64,000 nt of DNA, taken from the NCBI GenBank assembly GCA_003994795.1, contig AP018269.1, positions 6,165,687 through 6,229,686 on the forward strand, written 5' to 3'. The position numbers were made by a program, and so were the translations under genes. The DNA is from Cylindrospermum sp. NIES-4074. Lineage in GTDB: Bacteria > Cyanobacteriota > Cyanobacteriia > Cyanobacteriales > Nostocaceae. Within the stretch, counting starts at the first letter, position 1. Every line of letters starts with the position of its first letter. The notes beneath the pieces were generated by a model, which had not been told where the DNA came from, did not search any database, and saw nothing but the letters and a program-made list of their open reading frames with translations. Below are positions 24,345 through 31,161 of the stretch, in pieces.

Positions 24345-24461
24345 GGTTTGTTTTTTTTAGCTATCAAAGTAGGAATATTGTTACACTACCAGGTGCTAGA
24401 GGCTAGGGGCTAGGGAAAGAGAATTCAGGGATTGAAGATATTTCGCTGCAAATGTGCGATT

Positions 24462-24539
24462 GCGCTGATTTGTGTTTTTCTTCTAGATTATCAGTAAATC
24501 AAGCTAAAATATCAGGCAAATCTGTTACCTGCCAACAAG
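24462..24539 (+). promoter_or_regulatory. Shared 78-base upstream segment of the kinase/pilin genes
   Basis: Sequence from GCGCTGATTTGTG through TTCTAGATTATCAG and CAGGCAAATCTGTTACCTGC, ending at the ATG. Near-identical copies precede all three paralogues (24462-24539, 26137-26214, 27090-27167). The conservation through the whole segment means each duplicated unit carries its own promoter and leader, so each copy is probably transcribed alone. No -10/-35 pair was assigned. Confidence 0.6.
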
Positions 24540-26066
24540 ATGAGCCTCTGCATCCGTCCCAACTGCCCAAACCCTCAAAATCCCGACAATATCCTATTTT
24601 GCCTAGCTTGTGGTTCAGAATTGCTCCTAGAAGGACGGTATCGAGTAGCTAGCATTCTGGGTGGTGGTGGCTTTGGCAAAACATTTGCGGTGAGTGATGC
24701 GCGAAGCAACACAACCAAAGTTCTGAAAGTCCTCATCAACGAGCATCCCAAAGCAGTAGAGTTATTTCAGCGAGAAGCAGAAGTTCTGGCTCGGTTAAAT
24801 CATCCTGGTATTCCCAACGTCGATACAGATGGATACTTTACCTTTTTTCCCCACAGTAGCCAGGAACCATTGCACTGTCTGGTGATGGAGAAAATTGAGG
24901 GTTTGGATTTAGAAAAATATTTGAGACAAAGAGGCGATCGCCCCATTGATCAAAAAATGGCAGTTCAATGGTTGACGGAAATAGTCACCATACTGCAAAA
25001 AGTTCATGAGCAAAACTTTTTCCATCGCGACATAAAACCACCCAACATCATGCTCAGAGCAGATGGACGTTTAGCATTAATTGACTTTGGCACAGCACGA
25101 GCAGTTACAGGAACTTACGTCGCAAAACAAGCTATTGGGCAGGTTACAGGGGTCATTTCCGCAGGTTACACACCCTCAGAGCAAATCAATGGTCAAGCTG
25201 TACAACAATCTGATTTCTTTGCTTTGGGACGCACCTTTGTTTATTTACTCACAGGAAAAGACCCAAGTCACTTTTATGATCCTATAAATGATGTCCTAAG
25301 CTGGCGTGATCATGCTACTCACATCTCACCCCAATTCGCCGATTTACTTGATCAGATGATGGCGCGTTTAGTAAGTCAACGCCCTCAAAATGCAGAAGTG
25401 ATTTTGCAAAGTTTAGCAAATATTAACCAGTCTTCTCAACTAGGTTCTACACCAACTCAACCAACGGCTGTTCCTAGAGTTCCTCCTACTCAGCCAGTTA
25501 CCCACCAACCACCAGTATCTTCACAAATTGCCCCAAATTTTGGAGCCAGCCCCTTAGTTGCCCAAGTTAGCTCATCACCGGGAAATAAAACTAATGTGGC
25601 ACTGATTATTGGTTTAGGTTGTTTTCTCCCATTTGTTGGTTTATTTCTACTGATAGGTGCTATAGCTTTACCATCATTTTTAAATCAGGCAAACAAAGCT
25701 AAACAATCAGAGGCTAAAACCTATATTGGGTCAATGAATAGAGCGCAACAAGCATATTTTCTGGAGAACAATAAATTTTCTTCAACCATTGCTGAATTGC
25801 AACTTGGTATTAAATCGGAAACTCAAAATTATTCATATAGTGTTAATGTCATTAACCCAAAACAGTCTGTGAGATTAACTGCTAAAGCAAAAGTATCAGG
25901 ACTCAAGAGTTATACAGGTGCAGTATTTGTCCAAAATGCTAAAGAGTTTCTGACAATTGCTGGAACTTGCGAGACAACTGCACCATCACAAACACCTCCT
26001 AATATGCCTGAATTGGTTAAGGGTGCTATTCAGTGTCCCGCTGGTTCTCAATCCTTAGCCAGATAA
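24540..26066 (+). CDS. Ser/Thr kinase with zinc ribbon and C-terminal pilin-like domain
   Basis: A 508-residue protein. Residues 4-24 form a zinc ribbon (C-x4-C and C-x2-C). The kinase domain (about 31-300) has the glycine loop GGGGFGKTF, K63 in VLKVL, catalytic HRDIKPPNIM (H162, D164) and DFGTA (D182), so it should be active. A Pro-rich linker leads to one membrane helix (NVALIIGLGCFLPFVGLFLL) and then a domain like type IV pilins (KAKQSEAKTYIGSMNRAQQA, LENNKFSSTIAELQLGIKSE). The pilin GFTLIE peptidase site is absent, so it stays membrane-anchored. First of three tandem paralogues and the only one with a full kinase. Confidence 0.85.
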   Translation: MSLCIRPNCPNPQNPDNILFCLACGSELLLEGRYRVASILGGGGFGKTFAVSDARSNTTKVLKVLINEHPKAVELFQREAEVLARLNHPGIPNVDTDGYFTFFPHSSQEPLHCLVMEKIEGLDLEKYLRQRGDRPIDQKMAVQWLTEIVTILQKVHEQNFFHRDIKPPNIMLRADGRLALIDFGTARAVTGTYVAKQAIGQVTGVISAGYTPSEQINGQAVQQSDFFALGRTFVYLLTGKDPSHFYDPINDVLSWRDHATHISPQFADLLDQMMARLVSQRPQNAEVILQSLANINQSSQLGSTPTQPTAVPRVPPTQPVTHQPPVSSQIAPNFGASPLVAQVSSSPGNKTNVALIIGLGCFLPFVGLFLLIGAIALPSFLNQANKAKQSEAKTYIGSMNRAQQAYFLENNKFSSTIAELQLGIKSETQNYSYSVNVINPKQSVRLTAKAKVSGLKSYTGAVFVQNAKEFLTIAGTCETTAPSQTPPNMPELVKGAIQCPAGSQSLAR

Positions 26067-26214
26067 TTTTCTCAAGTGTGCGATCGCCCTTGGCGGGGCG
26101 TAGCCCATCGCGTACCCGCCTGCCGGAGGCGATATCGCGCTGATTTGTGTTTTTATTTTAGATTATCAGTAAAGCAAGCTAAAATATAAGACAAATCTGT
26201 TACCTGCCAACACA

Positions 26215-26967
26215 ATGAGCCTCTGCATCAATCCTAAATGCCCAAACGCCCAAAATCCTGACAATATCCTATTCTGTCAAACTTGTGGTTCAGAATTGCT
26301 CCTAGAAGGAAGGTATCGAGTCGCTAGCATTCTGGGTAGTGGTGGTTTTGGCAAAACATTTGCGGTGAGTGATGCGCGAAGCAACACAACCAAAGTCTTG
26401 AAAGTCCTCCCACCAGTATCTTCAACAATTGCCCCAAATTTTGGAGCCAGCCCCTTAGTTGCCCAAGGTAGCTCATCACCGGGAAAGAAAACTAATGTGG
26501 CACTGATTATTGGTTTAGGTTGTTTCCTACCATTAGTTGGTTTATTTCAACTGCGGGCTGCTATAGCTTTACCATCACTTTTAAATCAGGCGAGTAAAGC
26601 TAAACAGGCAGAGGCTAAAAACTATATTGGGACAATGAACAGAGCGCAACAAGCATATTTCCTGGAGAACGGAAAATTTGCTTCAACAATTTCAGAATTG
26701 CAACTTGGTATTAAATCGGAAACTACAAATTATTCATATAGTGTTAATGTTATTAACCCAAAACGGTCTGTGAGATTAACTGCTAAAGCAAAAAACTCAG
26801 GAATCAAGAGTTACACTGGTGCAGTTTTTGTTCAAAACGCTAAAGAGTCTTTTACAATTGCTGGAGTTTGTGAGACAAATGCACCCTCACAAACACCTCC
26901 CAGTATGCCTCAATTCGTTAAGGGCATCATTCGGTGTCCCGCTGGTTCTCAATCCTTAGCCAGATAA
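26215..26967 (+). CDS. Kinase-deleted paralogue: zinc ribbon plus pilin-like domain
   Basis: A 250-residue paralogue of the gene at 24540. It keeps the zinc ribbon, glycine loop and beta-3 lysine (TKVLKVL) and then jumps directly to PPVSSTIAPNFG, the linker before the membrane helix. About 270 residues, including the whole HRD/DFG core, are missing by an in-frame deletion. The pilin-like domain is complete (SKAKQAEAKNYIGTMNRAQQ and the C-terminus PAGSQSLAR). It can have no kinase activity. Intact reading frame and start suggest it is still translated and under selection, or only recently formed. It could act as a non-catalytic partner of the full kinase. Confidence 0.75.
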   Translation: MSLCINPKCPNAQNPDNILFCQTCGSELLLEGRYRVASILGSGGFGKTFAVSDARSNTTKVLKVLPPVSSTIAPNFGASPLVAQGSSSPGKKTNVALIIGLGCFLPLVGLFQLRAAIALPSLLNQASKAKQAEAKNYIGTMNRAQQAYFLENGKFASTISELQLGIKSETTNYSYSVNVINPKRSVRLTAKAKNSGIKSYTGAVFVQNAKESFTIAGVCETNAPSQTPPSMPQFVKGIIRCPAGSQSLAR

Positions 26968-27167
26968 TCTCCTAAAATGTGCGATGGGCTACGCCCCGCC
27001 AAGGGCGATCGCTATTTTGAACGAGTGGTAAAGTGCGATCACCTACGGTGGGGCGTAGCCCATCGCGTACCCGCCCGCTGGAAGCGATCGCGCTGATTTG
27101 TGTTTTTCTTCTAGATTATCAGTAAATCAAGCTAAAATATCAGGCAAATCTGTTACCTACCAACAAG

Positions 27168-28190
27168 ATGAGCCTCTGCATCCATCCCAAGTGCTCAAAC
27201 CCCCAAAATCCTGACAATAGCCCATTTTGTCTGGCTTGTGGTTCAGAATTGCTCCTAGAAGGACGGTATCGAGTAACTAGCATTCTGGGTGGTGGAGGCT
27301 TTGGTAAAACATTTGCGGTGAGTGATGCGCGCAGCAACACAACCAAAGTCCTGAAAGTCCTCATCGACGAACATCCCAAAGCAGTAGAGTTATTTCAGCG
27401 AGAAGCAGAAGTTCTAGCTCGGTTAAATCATCCTAGTATTCCCCAAGTCGATACAGATGGATACTTTACCTTTTTCCCGCGCAATAGCCAGGAACCATTG
27501 CACTGTCTAGTGATGGAGAAAATTGAAGGCTTAGATTTAGAACAATATTTGAGACAAAGAGGCGATGGTTCTACACCAACTCAACCAGCTACTGTTCCTA
27601 GAGTTCCTCCTACTCAGCCAGTTACCCACCAACCACCAGTATCTTCACAAATTGCCCCAAATTTTGGAGCCAGCCCCTTAGTTGCCCAAGTTAGCTCATC
27701 ACCGGGAAAGAAAACTAATGTGGCACTGATTATTGGTTTAGGTTGTTTTCTCCCATTAGTTGGTTTATTTCTAGTGATAGCTGCTATAGTTTCACCATTA
27801 CTTTTAAATAGTACAGGCAGAGTTAAACAACCAGAGCCTAAACAGTATGTTGGGATAATGAACAGAGTGCAGCAAGCATATTTTCTGGAGTACAATAAAT
27901 TTGCTTCAACAATTTCTGAATTGCAACTCGGTATTAAACCAGAAACTCCAAATTATTCATATAGTGTTAATGTTGTTAACCCAAAACAGTCTGTGCTATT
28001 AACTGCTAAAGCGAAAGTATCAGGACTCAAGAGTTATACAGGTGCAGTATTTGTCCAAAATGCTAAAGAGTCTCTGACAATTGCTGGAACTTGCGAGACA
28101 ATTGCACCCTCACAAACGCCTCCTAATATGCCTGAATTGGTTAAGGGCACTATTCAGTGTCCCGCTGGTTCCCAATCCTTAGCTAGATAA
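27168..28190 (+). CDS. Partly kinase-deleted paralogue with pilin-like domain
   Basis: A 340-residue paralogue. It keeps the zinc ribbon and the kinase N-lobe up to YLRQRGD, then continues at GSTPTQPATVPRVPP, the Pro-rich linker. The deletion removes about 170 residues, including HRD, DFG and the activation segment. The membrane helix and pilin-like domain follow intact. Endpoints differ from those in the 26215 copy, so two independent deletions made two different shortened forms, both in frame. Downstream lies a WD40 fragment (28244-28378). Confidence 0.75.
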   Translation: MSLCIHPKCSNPQNPDNSPFCLACGSELLLEGRYRVTSILGGGGFGKTFAVSDARSNTTKVLKVLIDEHPKAVELFQREAEVLARLNHPSIPQVDTDGYFTFFPRNSQEPLHCLVMEKIEGLDLEQYLRQRGDGSTPTQPATVPRVPPTQPVTHQPPVSSQIAPNFGASPLVAQVSSSPGKKTNVALIIGLGCFLPLVGLFLVIAAIVSPLLLNSTGRVKQPEPKQYVGIMNRVQQAYFLEYNKFASTISELQLGIKPETPNYSYSVNVVNPKQSVLLTAKAKVSGLKSYTGAVFVQNAKESLTIAGTCETIAPSQTPPNMPELVKGTIQCPAGSQSLAR

Positions 28191-28243
28191 TCTCCTAAAG
28201 TGTGCGATGGCGTACGCACCCGCCAAGCATCGCTTAAATTGTG

Positions 28244-28378
28244 ATAAGCAATAGACAAGAAATTTACACCGTCAACGCTCATTTAGGTAGTGTAAATGCA
28301 GTCACATTTAGCCCAGATGGTCAGTTTCTGATTAGTGGCGGTAAAGACAGTACAATCAGGGTTTGGCAAATTAATTAA
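28244..28378 (+). pseudogene. Single WD40 blade remnant
   Basis: Read in the frame ending at TAA 28376-28378: ISNRQEIYTVNAHLGSVNAV, then TFSPDGQFLISGGKDSTIRV and WQIN. This is one C-terminal WD40 blade with the typical HxxxVxxVxFSPDG and GGxDxTIRVW pattern, with no start codon. It is probably what remains of a kinase-WD40 or WD40 protein gene that was mostly deleted. Confidence 0.75.
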
Positions 28379-28517: not shown

Positions 28518-28997
28518 ATGACCAACATACCCCAACCCGGACAACCAGCACCAGACTTCTCCACCCCCGACGAAAACGACAACCCAGTCACCCTCAACGA
28601 CTTCAGCAATAACTGGGTTATCCTCTACTTCTACCCCAAAGACGATACCCCCGGCTGCACCACAGAAGCAAAAGACTTTACCGACTTATATCAAGAATTC
28701 AGCCAACTAGACGCGAAAATCTTAGGCGTAAGTCCAGATTCTACTAAAACCCATTGCAAATTTATTAATAAACATAACTTGTCAATCACCCTTTTAAGTG
28801 ACCCAGAACATCAACTCACAGAAGCTTATGGTGCTTGGCGTTTAAAGAAATTTATGGGTAAAGAATATATGGGTGTTGCTCGCTCAACTTTTTTGATTTC
28901 ACCAGATAAAATTATTGCTTATACTTGGCCCAACGTCAAAGCCAAAGGTCATGCTCAAGCAGTATTAACCAAATTGAAAGAATTAGCAGCCAAATGA
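28518..28997 (+). CDS. Peroxiredoxin of the BCP/PrxQ family
   Basis: Reduces hydroperoxides with electrons from thioredoxin, in the cytoplasm. The start is placed at 28518 (MTNIPQPGQPAPDFSTPDEN), because the longer upstream reading is repeat sequence. Residues 40-51 are PKDDTPGCTTEA with peroxidatic C47. The resolving Cys usual five residues later is Lys here (K52), so this is a one-Cys type PrxQ unless C80 (KTHCKF) serves. RSTFLISPDKIIAYTWPNV is the usual C-terminal motif. Monocistronic, 159 residues. Confidence 0.92.
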   Translation: MTNIPQPGQPAPDFSTPDENDNPVTLNDFSNNWVILYFYPKDDTPGCTTEAKDFTDLYQEFSQLDAKILGVSPDSTKTHCKFINKHNLSITLLSDPEHQLTEAYGAWRLKKFMGKEYMGVARSTFLISPDKIIAYTWPNVKAKGHAQAVLTKLKELAAK

Positions 28998-29150: not shown

Positions 29151-29199
29151 AAGGGTGCATATTTTATATAATAGTAATATTATCTCTATTCTATTCATT

Positions 29200-29986
29200 A
29201 TGGTTCAATTCCTTCAAGCGCAAAATGTAGGTATTGCCTATTTAGAAGAAAGATTCGGTCTGCAACAAGCTGAGAATGAAGATTTTTTTACAGAGTGGTT
29301 TGACAATCTCCCAGAAATTACAGAATTAGAAAAACAATATCTAGATAGAGTTAAAGCTAATTTTTTCAGCTTAATTAAGCGTCCGCCAATTTTAGAAAAT
29401 GCTGTAAAAATGGTAGTATTATCTCCCTTGCTAGATTTGTCCGGTTTTTATCGCCATCCTTTCCATATTGCCACAGAAGAATCTATAGAAATTAGTGAAG
29501 AAATAATTATAGATATTCAAGAGAATACAGAAGAAATTAAAGAAATCATCAAAGGCGAAATTGACGTACTAGTTCTTCAGCATCAGCTATGGTTAATAGT
29601 CATTGAGGCTAAAAGGTCTAGCTTCTCTTTAGCTAAAGCAATTCCCCAAGCGCTTACTTATATGCTGGCTAATCCTAAGCCTAATAATTCTATATATTCA
29701 TTGGTAATAAATGGAGAAGATTTTCAATTCATCAAAATAACACAACAAGATAAGCCAATTTACGCTTTATCTGATAGATTCTCGTTATATCGACGGGAAA
29801 ATGAACTATATCAGGACTTACGCAACTGGCACATTAGTAGGGTGCGTCAGATGTCAAAAATCTGTTTATTTGCCAGATTTATCGAGTCTGACGCACCCTA
29901 CAATCGATGTTTATTATGACACTTGCGTAAGTCCTATATATAAAGTTCTACAAATCTTGAAAAAACTAGGTCAAATCTTGAGTTAA
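29200..29986 (+). pseudogene. HsdR_N-like nuclease gene interrupted near its end by a MITE
   Basis: Start MVQFLQAQNVGIAYLEERFG at 29200 (an upstream ATG at 29155 adds 15 unlike residues). The body resembles cyanobacterial proteins with a type I restriction HsdR N-terminal-like nuclease domain: VKMVVLSPLLDLSGFYRHPF, GEIDVLVLQ with D122, and LIVIEAKR with E136 and K138, the D...ExK nuclease pattern. At YRRENELY the frame enters a 125-base MITE and ends at 29919. After the MITE the original last residues (KVLQILKKLGQILS, stop at 29986) are still readable in another frame. So the last 14-15 residues are replaced by MITE-encoded ones; the nuclease core is untouched, so activity may remain. Confidence 0.8.
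29812..29936. mobile_element. MITE of the AGGACTTAC family, 125 bp
   Basis: Ends C-AGGACTTACGCAA and TTGCGTAAGTCCT-A, with 13-bp perfect inverted repeats. Flanked by the 5-base duplication TATAT (29807-29811 and 29937-29941). A second inverted pair, AGGGTGCGTCAGA and TCTGACGCACCCT, lies inside. The 63620 element has the same inner pair, so they are the same subfamily. Confidence 0.85.
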
Positions 29987-29988
29987 TT

Positions 29989-31161
29989 ATGTCTAATCGC
30001 CCTATTTACCTGGATTGTCACGCTACCACACCCGTAGATGAACGGGTACTAGCAGCAATGATTCCCTACTTCACAGAAAAATTTGGCAACCCAGCCAGTG
30101 TTAATCATGTTTACGGTTGGGAAGCAGAAGCGGCTGTTAAACAAACGCGGGAAATTTTAGCCGCAGCTATTAACGCCACACCAGAAGAAATTGTTTTTAC
30201 TAGTGGCGCAACAGAAGCTAATAATTTAGCTATTAAAGGTGTAGCTGAAGCTTATTTTTCCAAAGGTCAGCATATTATTACAGTTGCCACTGAACATGGT
30301 GCTGTTCTCGATCCTTGTAAATATTTAAAAAGCCTTGGGTTTGAAATTACAATCTTGCCAGTCAAGAAAGATGGGTTAATTGACTTAACAGAATTAGAAA
30401 AAGCTTTGCGTCCTGACACCATTTTAGTATCGGTGATGGCAGCAAATAATGAAATTGGCGTTTTACAACCTTTAGCTTCAATTGGGGAAATCTGCCGCGA
30501 TCGCCAAATCACCTTTCACACAGACGCCGCTCAAGCAATTGGTAAAATTCCCCTGGATGTGCAAGCAATGAAAATTGACTTGATGTCCCTCACAGCACAT
30601 AAGGTATACGGGCCTAAAGGCATCGGGGCGCTATACGTCCGCAGACGCAACCCCAGAGTCCAAATTGCACCCCAGCAACATGGAGGTGGACATGAGCGGG
30701 GGATGCGTTCTGGAACTTTGTACACACCGCAAATTGTCGGTTTTGGTAAAGCTGTAGAAATTGCCTTGACAGAACAAGCAACAGAAATCCAACGCCTTAC
30801 GGAACTCAGAGAAAGATTGTGGTTACAGCTTTCCACCTTGGAAGGAGTGCATCTCAACGGACATCCTACCCAGCGACTAGCAGGAAACTTGAGTATCAGT
30901 GTGGAGGGGGTGGATGGTGCCGCACTTTCGCTAGGATTGCAGCCAGTAATGGCGGTGTCTTCTGGTTCTGCTTGCTCATCGGCGACCACTGCACCCTCCC
31001 ATGTTCTCACCGCACTAGGACACTCAGAACAGCTAGCTTATGCCTCAATCCGCTTTGGTATTGGGCGTTTCAACACCGTAGCGGAGATTGATCAAGTTGC
31101 ACAACAGGCGATCGCTACTATTCAAGGTTTACGCAAGCAGAAGACCCTGGTACAGCAATAA
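29989..31161 (+). CDS. Cysteine desulfurase, IscS/NifS type
   Basis: PLP enzyme that takes sulfur from cysteine for Fe-S clusters and other sulfur uses. Evidence: IYLDCHATTPVDERVLAAMI at the start, HTDAAQAIGKIPLD, PLP lysine K205 in SLTAHKVYGPKG and the active-site loop SSGSACSSATTAPSHVL with catalytic C329. The loop is of the group I (IscS/NifS) type rather than SufS. 390 residues, usual length. A hairpin follows the stop. The nfu-like scaffold gene is 12 kb away, so no operon link. Cyanobacteria have several paralogues, so I cannot say which this is. Confidence 0.92.
   Translation: MSNRPIYLDCHATTPVDERVLAAMIPYFTEKFGNPASVNHVYGWEAEAAVKQTREILAAAINATPEEIVFTSGATEANNLAIKGVAEAYFSKGQHIITVATEHGAVLDPCKYLKSLGFEITILPVKKDGLIDLTELEKALRPDTILVSVMAANNEIGVLQPLASIGEICRDRQITFHTDAAQAIGKIPLDVQAMKIDLMSLTAHKVYGPKGIGALYVRRRNPRVQIAPQQHGGGHERGMRSGTLYTPQIVGFGKAVEIALTEQATEIQRLTELRERLWLQLSTLEGVHLNGHPTQRLAGNLSISVEGVDGAALSLGLQPVMAVSSGSACSSATTAPSHVLTALGHSEQLAYASIRFGIGRFNTVAEIDQVAQQAIATIQGLRKQKTLVQQ

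Follow-up and report, generated by a model that had tools for sequence, protein, structure and literature searches.

Three tandem kinase–pilin genes, two of them without the kinase core, at the pkn22-prxQA-osiS locus of Cylindrospermum sp. NIES-4074

Pkn22 is a known kinase of stress and cell differentiation. Its gene, alr2502, is the first of an operon that also contains PrxQ-A and OsiS (PMC4518582); its ATP lysine is Lys63, according to the accessible part of PMC6985446, and in Nostoc the residue phosphorylated with Pkn22 is Ser130 of HetR. The available part of PMC2176072 lists alr2502 with PbH1(8). Here we describe an array of three tandem genes in a 64,000-nucleotide stretch of Cylindrospermum sp. 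NIES-4074 (contig AP018269.1, positions 6,165,687 to 6,229,686; hereafter the window), which occupies the position of pkn22 in Nostoc, upstream of a PrxQ-type peroxiredoxin gene and a cysteine desulfurase gene, and whose products end in a pilin-like head.

Two further groups of proteins are close to those of the array. Pseudokinases retain the kinase fold. Those described from bacteria in the accessible text of PMC12599244 are, like the two shortened proteins of the array, catalytically dead and kinase-derived membrane proteins, whereas the latter have lost the C-lobe. The other group is that of the type IV pilin-like G/H proteins (PF16734), with which the array proteins share a head above the family cut-off and a match to PilA that includes helix alpha-1, but from which they differ by the absence of a prepilin cleavage motif and by having the head fused to a cytoplasmic kinase, whole or as a remnant. 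A literature search, thin on subscription papers, returned no paper on kinase–Pilin_GH fusions; the word "pilin" occurs 0 times in PMC2176072 and 0 times in PMC12599244, and PMC13114239 and PMC13297417 mention a G/H protein by name alone, the former as a gene that is down-regulated, the latter as the source of a signal peptide.

The array and its relation to Pkn22

The three genes lie on the plus strand and are open throughout, encoding 508, 250, and 340 amino acids (copies 1, 2, and 3; table 1). The common ribbon and pilin-like domain reported in the first-pass annotation were recovered in all three: the 4-Cys prefix (NF045510) scored 40.9, 42.9, and 37.5 bits in copies 1, 2, and 3 against a cut-off of 24, and Pilin_GH (PF16734, Pfam) 124, 132, and 119 bits against a curated cut-off of 28.9 (E-values 3.7e-36, 2e-38, and 2.3e-34). 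The kinase of copy 1 is complete, as had been claimed, with a Pfam Pkinase match over residues 34–287 and with K63, HRD 162 (D164), and DFG 182 (D182) all present; copy 3 matches Pkinase over residues 34–132 under the curated cut-off (4.8e-6), and copy 2 gives no Pfam Pkinase match. The membrane helix that had been listed as an element of its own does exist, but it aligns with PilA alpha-1 from position 10 onward and is, according to this alignment, the pilin's own N-terminal helix. By eye, no class III prepilin motif (GFTLIE-like) precedes alpha-1 in any of the three copies, whereas stand-alone relatives have GFTLIE; the proteins should therefore not be cleaved and assembled into a pilus. If they insert as pilins do, the kinase would lie inside and the head outside.

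A tree of 45 kinase domains (10 of an initial 55, more distant kinases of the same genome, were left out beforehand) places copy 1 as sister (98/96) to eight kinase–beta-helix proteins; the alr2502 sequence itself is absent from this tree, and the beta-helix tails were identified by Pfam in two of its members (L015 and L118) and by eye, from like tails, in the remainder. In seven of the eight sister loci a peroxiredoxin match lies downstream of the kinase; the eighth stretch stops too soon. In Nostoc parmelioides, a kinase with a 4-Cys prefix and a beta-helix tail is followed by a peroxiredoxin, by the same gene of unknown function as in the window, and by a cysteine desulfurase (L008). The array proteins lack the C-terminal beta-helix and carry Pilin_GH in its place, and K63 of copy 1 matches Lys63 of Pkn22. 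From the tree clade, the order of the locus, K63, and the PbH1(8) listing (PbH1 presumably being a beta-helix repeat), we conclude that copy 1, as far as sequence comparison can tell, carries a Pkn22-type kinase domain with an exchanged tail. The supported order of events would be a swap of the beta-helix for a pilin-like membrane module, followed by triplication and by the loss of a different kinase portion from each of two copies. Thus the array resembles Pkn22 (Alr2502) in its kinase clade, K63, and place ahead of PrxQ-A and the cysteine desulfurase, and is unlike it in its membrane helix and pilin head, in its three copies, two without a working kinase, and in the glycine found at residue 130 of the HetR of the same genome. 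The address of the array at the pkn22-prxQA-osiS locus is new with respect to the first-pass annotation, and the observation is more telling for it.

Table 1. Features of the array and of its surroundings (window positions; codons and residues of copies 2 and 3 in copy-1 numbering)
Feature	Position	Strand	Remarks
Upstream segment, copy 1	24457..24539	+	TAAAAT, -10-like, by eye
Copy 1	24540..26066	+	Ribbon 1-31, kinase 34-287, Pro-rich linker, alpha-1 353-403, Pilin_GH 389-500
Upstream segment, copy 2	26132..26214	+	10/83 differences to copy 1
Copy 2	26215..26967	+	Ribbon and beta1-beta3 of the kinase, up to codon 65; linker, membrane helix, Pilin_GH
Deletion junction, copy 2	26409/26410	+	Alignment to copy 1
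Upstream segment, copy 3	27085..27167	+	2/83 differences to copy 1
Copy 3	27168..28190	+	Ribbon and kinase N-lobe/helix D to codon 133, linker, membrane helix, Pilin_GH
Deletion junction, copy 3	27566/27567	+	Alignment to copy 1
Burst of changes, copy 3	27771..27872	+	Codons 370-403; 17 unique replacements, 1 unique silent
WD40 scrap	28241..28378	+	Last repeat, directly before peroxiredoxin gene; left over from an earlier WD40 gene or a neighbouring one
PrxQ/Bcp-type peroxiredoxin	28518..28997	+	Frame listed from 28335, likely ATG 28518; marks pkn22-prxQA-osiS locus
Conserved neighbour of unknown function	29155..29919	+	Also at the Nostoc parmelioides locus
Cysteine desulfurase (OsiS position)	29989..31161	+	Third gene after the array

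Two deletions and the constraint on what they left

Alignment of the three genes bears out the earlier claim of two different losses of the kinase core, copy 2 being without codons 66–323 and copy 3 without codons 134–301. Relative to copy 1 these deletions measure 774 and 504 nt, both multiples of three; their endpoints differ and the pilin-like domain is left whole, also as claimed. Copy 2 retains K63 in beta1–beta3, and the deletion in copy 3 removes nearly the whole C-lobe. Neither shortened protein thus has the two-lobed fold without catalytic residues that would define a pseudokinase. Residues 29–132 of copy 3 align with solved Hanks kinases, and its predicted structure comprises five strands and helix C with a predicted local distance difference test score (pLDDT) of about 73–85, the helix at 124–130 reaching about 62; beyond the N-lobe the model is unreliable (mean pLDDT 46.4). 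The deletions are the only length changes in the coding alignment, and neither shortened frame contains a stop. Both would stay in frame by chance in 1 case out of 9, which is weak evidence alone. No shared bases were seen by eye at either junction, with copy 1 as a stand-in for the lost sequence, and the junction of copy 3 falls inside the GGCGATCGCC palindrome of copy 1.

The first-pass annotation had proposed that it is the pilin-like part that is retained. The head does appear constrained, but not exclusively so, because the ribbon and N-lobe look constrained at least as much. The ratio of replacement to silent substitution rates (dN/dS) was 0.19 (copies 1 and 2), 0.22 (1 and 3), and 0.22 (2 and 3) for codons 1–65, and 0.20 for the N-lobe (codons 66–133, copies 1 and 3), as compared with 0.35, 0.57, and 0.42 for the pilin head (codons 381–508; range 0.35–0.57), with bootstrap intervals that are wide and overlap between regions. 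Changes unique to one copy contain fewer replacements than the 76% expected: 27 against 24 silent ones in copy 2 (p = 0.0004), nine against 10 in copy 3 minus codons 370–403 (p = 0.012), and 13 against nine in copy 1 (p = 0.08). We also compared the loss of profile score in each copy, using profiles of 52 N-terminal and 70 pilin relatives, with that in 1500 neutral runs each, started from the majority sequence of the copies, which is not their true ancestor. Neutral runs did at least as well as the actual sequence in none of the cases for codons 1–65 of copies 1 and 2 (0.5% for copy 3), in none for the N-lobe of copy 3 (codons 66–133, started from copy 1), and in 1.5%, 0, and 0.07% for the pilin head (codons 404–508) of copies 1, 2, and 3, respectively. 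For alpha-1 (codons 353–403) the corresponding figures were 0, 5.6%, and 57%. The retained parts therefore look constrained, except for alpha-1 of copy 3 and, weakly, that of copy 2.

The exception in copy 3 coincides with a burst of changes: 18 of its 37 unique changes fall within 34 codons, a concentration never reached in 20,000 random placements. The ratio of replacement to silent changes is 17:1 in the burst and 9:10 elsewhere (Fisher p = 0.003, for a window chosen after the fact), and replacements per site in the burst exceed silent changes per site elsewhere (p = 0.0008, with approximate site numbers); taken alone, 17 of 18 is not firmly different from the neutral share (p = 0.09). A donor within the genome was sought and rejected, as a DNA search matched only the three copies. 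A diversity-generating retroelement was likewise discarded since the changes are not confined to A (five C>T, five A>G, and eight others). There remain an adaptive change of the helix, a lost constraint combined with a local surplus of mutations, and a patch from a donor since lost.

The segment upstream of the genes, announced as 78 bases and compared here over 83 nt, is present before all three. Copies 1 and 3 differ at two positions, and copy 2 differs from either at 10; by eye, the segment resembles the final ~40 bases ahead of the start codon in orthologous kinase genes.

What the shortened copies may do

We tentatively favor a reading in which copy 1 would act as a kinase in the membrane, its catalytic part facing inward and its pilin head outward, the orientation of pilins before processing. 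Copies 2 and 3 would be produced as siblings that are catalytically dead but have the head, ribbon, and upstream segment in common with copy 1. By sharing or holding back the binding partners of copy 1, outside via the head or inside via the ribbon and N-lobe, they would set its output, and the changed alpha-1 of copy 3 may shift its pairing partners. Such a role is consistent with the constraint on copies 2 and 3 (codons 1–65 and pilin head), with the near identity of two of the upstream segments, and with the whole N-lobe kept by copy 3. A contact between copies through the N-lobe is plausible because a pseudokinase forms a back-to-back dimer via its N-lobe, likened to some canonical bacterial kinases, in the accessible part of PMC12599244. 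That the kinase-less copies compete with the full kinase at the membrane, as the first-pass annotation suggested, is possible.

Several points weigh against this role. In the available part of PMC6985446, Pkn22 of PCC 7120 showed no self-interaction in a two-hybrid assay. The array is known from one genome only, and the kinase has no simple line of descent within the genus: one congener (G074) has at the locus a kinase–WD40 gene, split by a stop, whose distant kinase is 57% identical to copy 1, and another (G028) has no kinase there. The deletions are undatable and much of the constraint may predate them. Neutral runs ended without a stop in 14% of cases for copy 2 (51 changes) and 22% for copy 3 (37 changes), and we accordingly dropped the open frames as proof of selection. 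In the linker (25443–25595 and its counterparts in copies 2 and 3) the copies show only 0–1 silent differences, a sign of exchange by gene conversion, or else of constraint at the DNA level, which could blur the constraint tests. Copy 3 has residues disfavored by its relatives (H6, P19, D67, and S90), and its alpha-1 contains two prolines, both of which might be expected of a gene in decay. Finally, among the three upstream segments, a promoter scan placed a plus-strand promoter-like site in that of copy 2 alone (26157–26185).

Nearly as likely as the dead-sibling role is decay in progress, with copies 2 and 3 as redundant duplicates without a notable role, decaying after deletions that kept the frame by chance and are recent enough for the remainder still to look constrained. 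The junctions differ and share no bases, as private deletions would; the neutral probability of an open frame is not small; the disfavored residues in the ribbon and N-lobe of copy 3, along with its unconstrained alpha-1, and the lack of a second genome with the array among the matches listed all fit. Decay accounts less well for the upstream segments of copies 1 and 3, which differ at two of 83 positions when silent divergence in codons 1–65 is about 0.19, or for copy 2, which has the larger deletion and yet the top Pilin_GH and 4-Cys scores of the three. It is also a point against decay that neither frame has a stop and that the deletion is the sole length change in each.

It is unlikely that the shortened copies are no more than pilin-like surface proteins using the promoter and start of the kinase gene, with kinase remnants as ballast and no contact with copy 1. 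Pilin_GH does occur with unrelated N-termini and as stand-alone pilins; but codons 1–65 look constrained at least like the pilin head, the missing class III motif argues against an ordinary pilus subunit, and alpha-1 of copy 3 is not conserved. Although three 300-nt repeats do stand in tandem, an assembly artefact, which the first-pass annotation had named as a possible refutation, is most improbable, because these repeats are 79–94% alike, that is, far above chance and yet 6–21% different, and lie inside a 6.85-Mb contig of a genome of five contigs.

A natural strain in which the tail of a kinase was swapped, its gene tripled, and its core cut twice would reveal which part of the kinase carries its role. 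In animals and plants, truncated siblings regulate kinase receptors. Should the shortened copies be functional, the same would hold for bacterial kinase receptors; otherwise the locus offers a clean view of a domain exchange with decay in its wake.

HetR, other Pilin_GH fusions, and neighboring DNA

The HetR of the same genome (L154, contig C1, 4007981–4008427) has Gly at residue 130 (TSLTG). We sampled 111 HetR loci (this one, the 30 best-scoring, and 80 picked from the listed rows), of which 104 could be read by pattern and gave 96 Ser, five Thr, two Gly, and one Ala (Ser/Thr in 101/104); for four of the remaining seven, the sequence context gives Thr, Thr, Thr, and Ser. Ser is kept both in G028, which has no kinase at the locus, and in G074, so loss of the phosphosite does not simply track the kinase, and one genome with Gly130 and a remodeled kinase is no correlation. 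It is a rather improbable extension that the Pkn22 step was re-plumbed in this lineage, with a beta-helix kinase turned into a pilin-headed membrane receptor kinase, two dedicated kinase-dead co-receptors derived from its own copies, one of them with an adaptively changed pairing helix, and loss of the HetR serine; if true, it would be a bacterial parallel of receptor kinases with decoy receptors.

The first-pass annotation suggested looking for the same domain set in other genomes. Among the matches listed from 192 genomes of the family, we found no second genome with the array and no other match across kinase and pilin, and no row outside the own genome passes residue 426 of the 508-residue query. 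We also read all 10 foreign Pilin_GH frames longer than 400 amino acids among the matches listed, whose numbers are not frequencies. One (G194, L148), from another family of the same order, combines a complete kinase and a membrane helix with Pilin_GH in a single protein, and we accordingly dropped the idea that the kinase–pilin fusion is unique; it has no 4-Cys prefix (by eye), is present as a single copy in its 3-kb stretch, and would be a separate fusion. A second (G054, L119, C8:5500–9500) resembles the shortened copies in joining to Pilin_GH a kinase that misses part of its core, but it matches the C-lobe part of the profile (158–198 of 263), not the N-lobe; at E 1e-40 its relatives were limited to one of the 192 genomes, itself. 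Farther along in the same locus, another frame shows a like kinase remnant (by eye). Three frames are pentapeptide proteins with Pilin_GH (G285, G346, and G461), and three have no partner above its Pfam cut-off (G117, G118, and G623). Of the two others, one joins a caspase-like peptidase to a membrane helix and Pilin_GH (G360, L102, C182), and the other, a frame of 559 amino acids, has four Pilin_GH heads in a row (G246, L151, C6:2056500–2059000). Pilin_GH thus has many fusion partners, and its joining to a kinase probably occurred more than once. Within the own genome, we considered whether 4-Cys proteins without a kinase are further shortened kinases and discarded the idea, as two of the 20 matches, which were read in part, end phosphatase-like by eye, one of these two being under the cut-off.

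In the 12 other genomes of the family whose peroxiredoxin locus was examined, a related kinase lies in the 1.5-kb flank in four and none in eight; the tails of these four kinases are WD40 (G074), RDD (G002), beta-helix (G003), and one with no Pfam partner (G006). The stretch originally delimited as one array holds as regards its genes but not its end, where 28241–28378 belongs to no copy: this WD40 scrap was ruled out as part of the array because its frame differs from that of copy 3 and it resembles the terminal part of a WD40 gene. Its position before the peroxiredoxin, together with the kinase–WD40 gene at the same place in G074, indicates that the window kinase may have come to the locus beside, or instead of, a WD40 kinase, although the scrap is too short as proof of descent from a kinase–WD40 gene.

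In PCC 7120, an NtcA box (GTt-N8-TAC) is centred ~250 nt above the transcription start; in the window, no GT[A/T]-N8-TAC box lies within 300 nt of any copy, a span counted from the genes and not from a transcription start. The intergenic DNA of the array contains GC-rich inverted repeats at 26080–26111 and 26981–27066, with GCGATCGC motifs and fully complementary arms of 32 nt.

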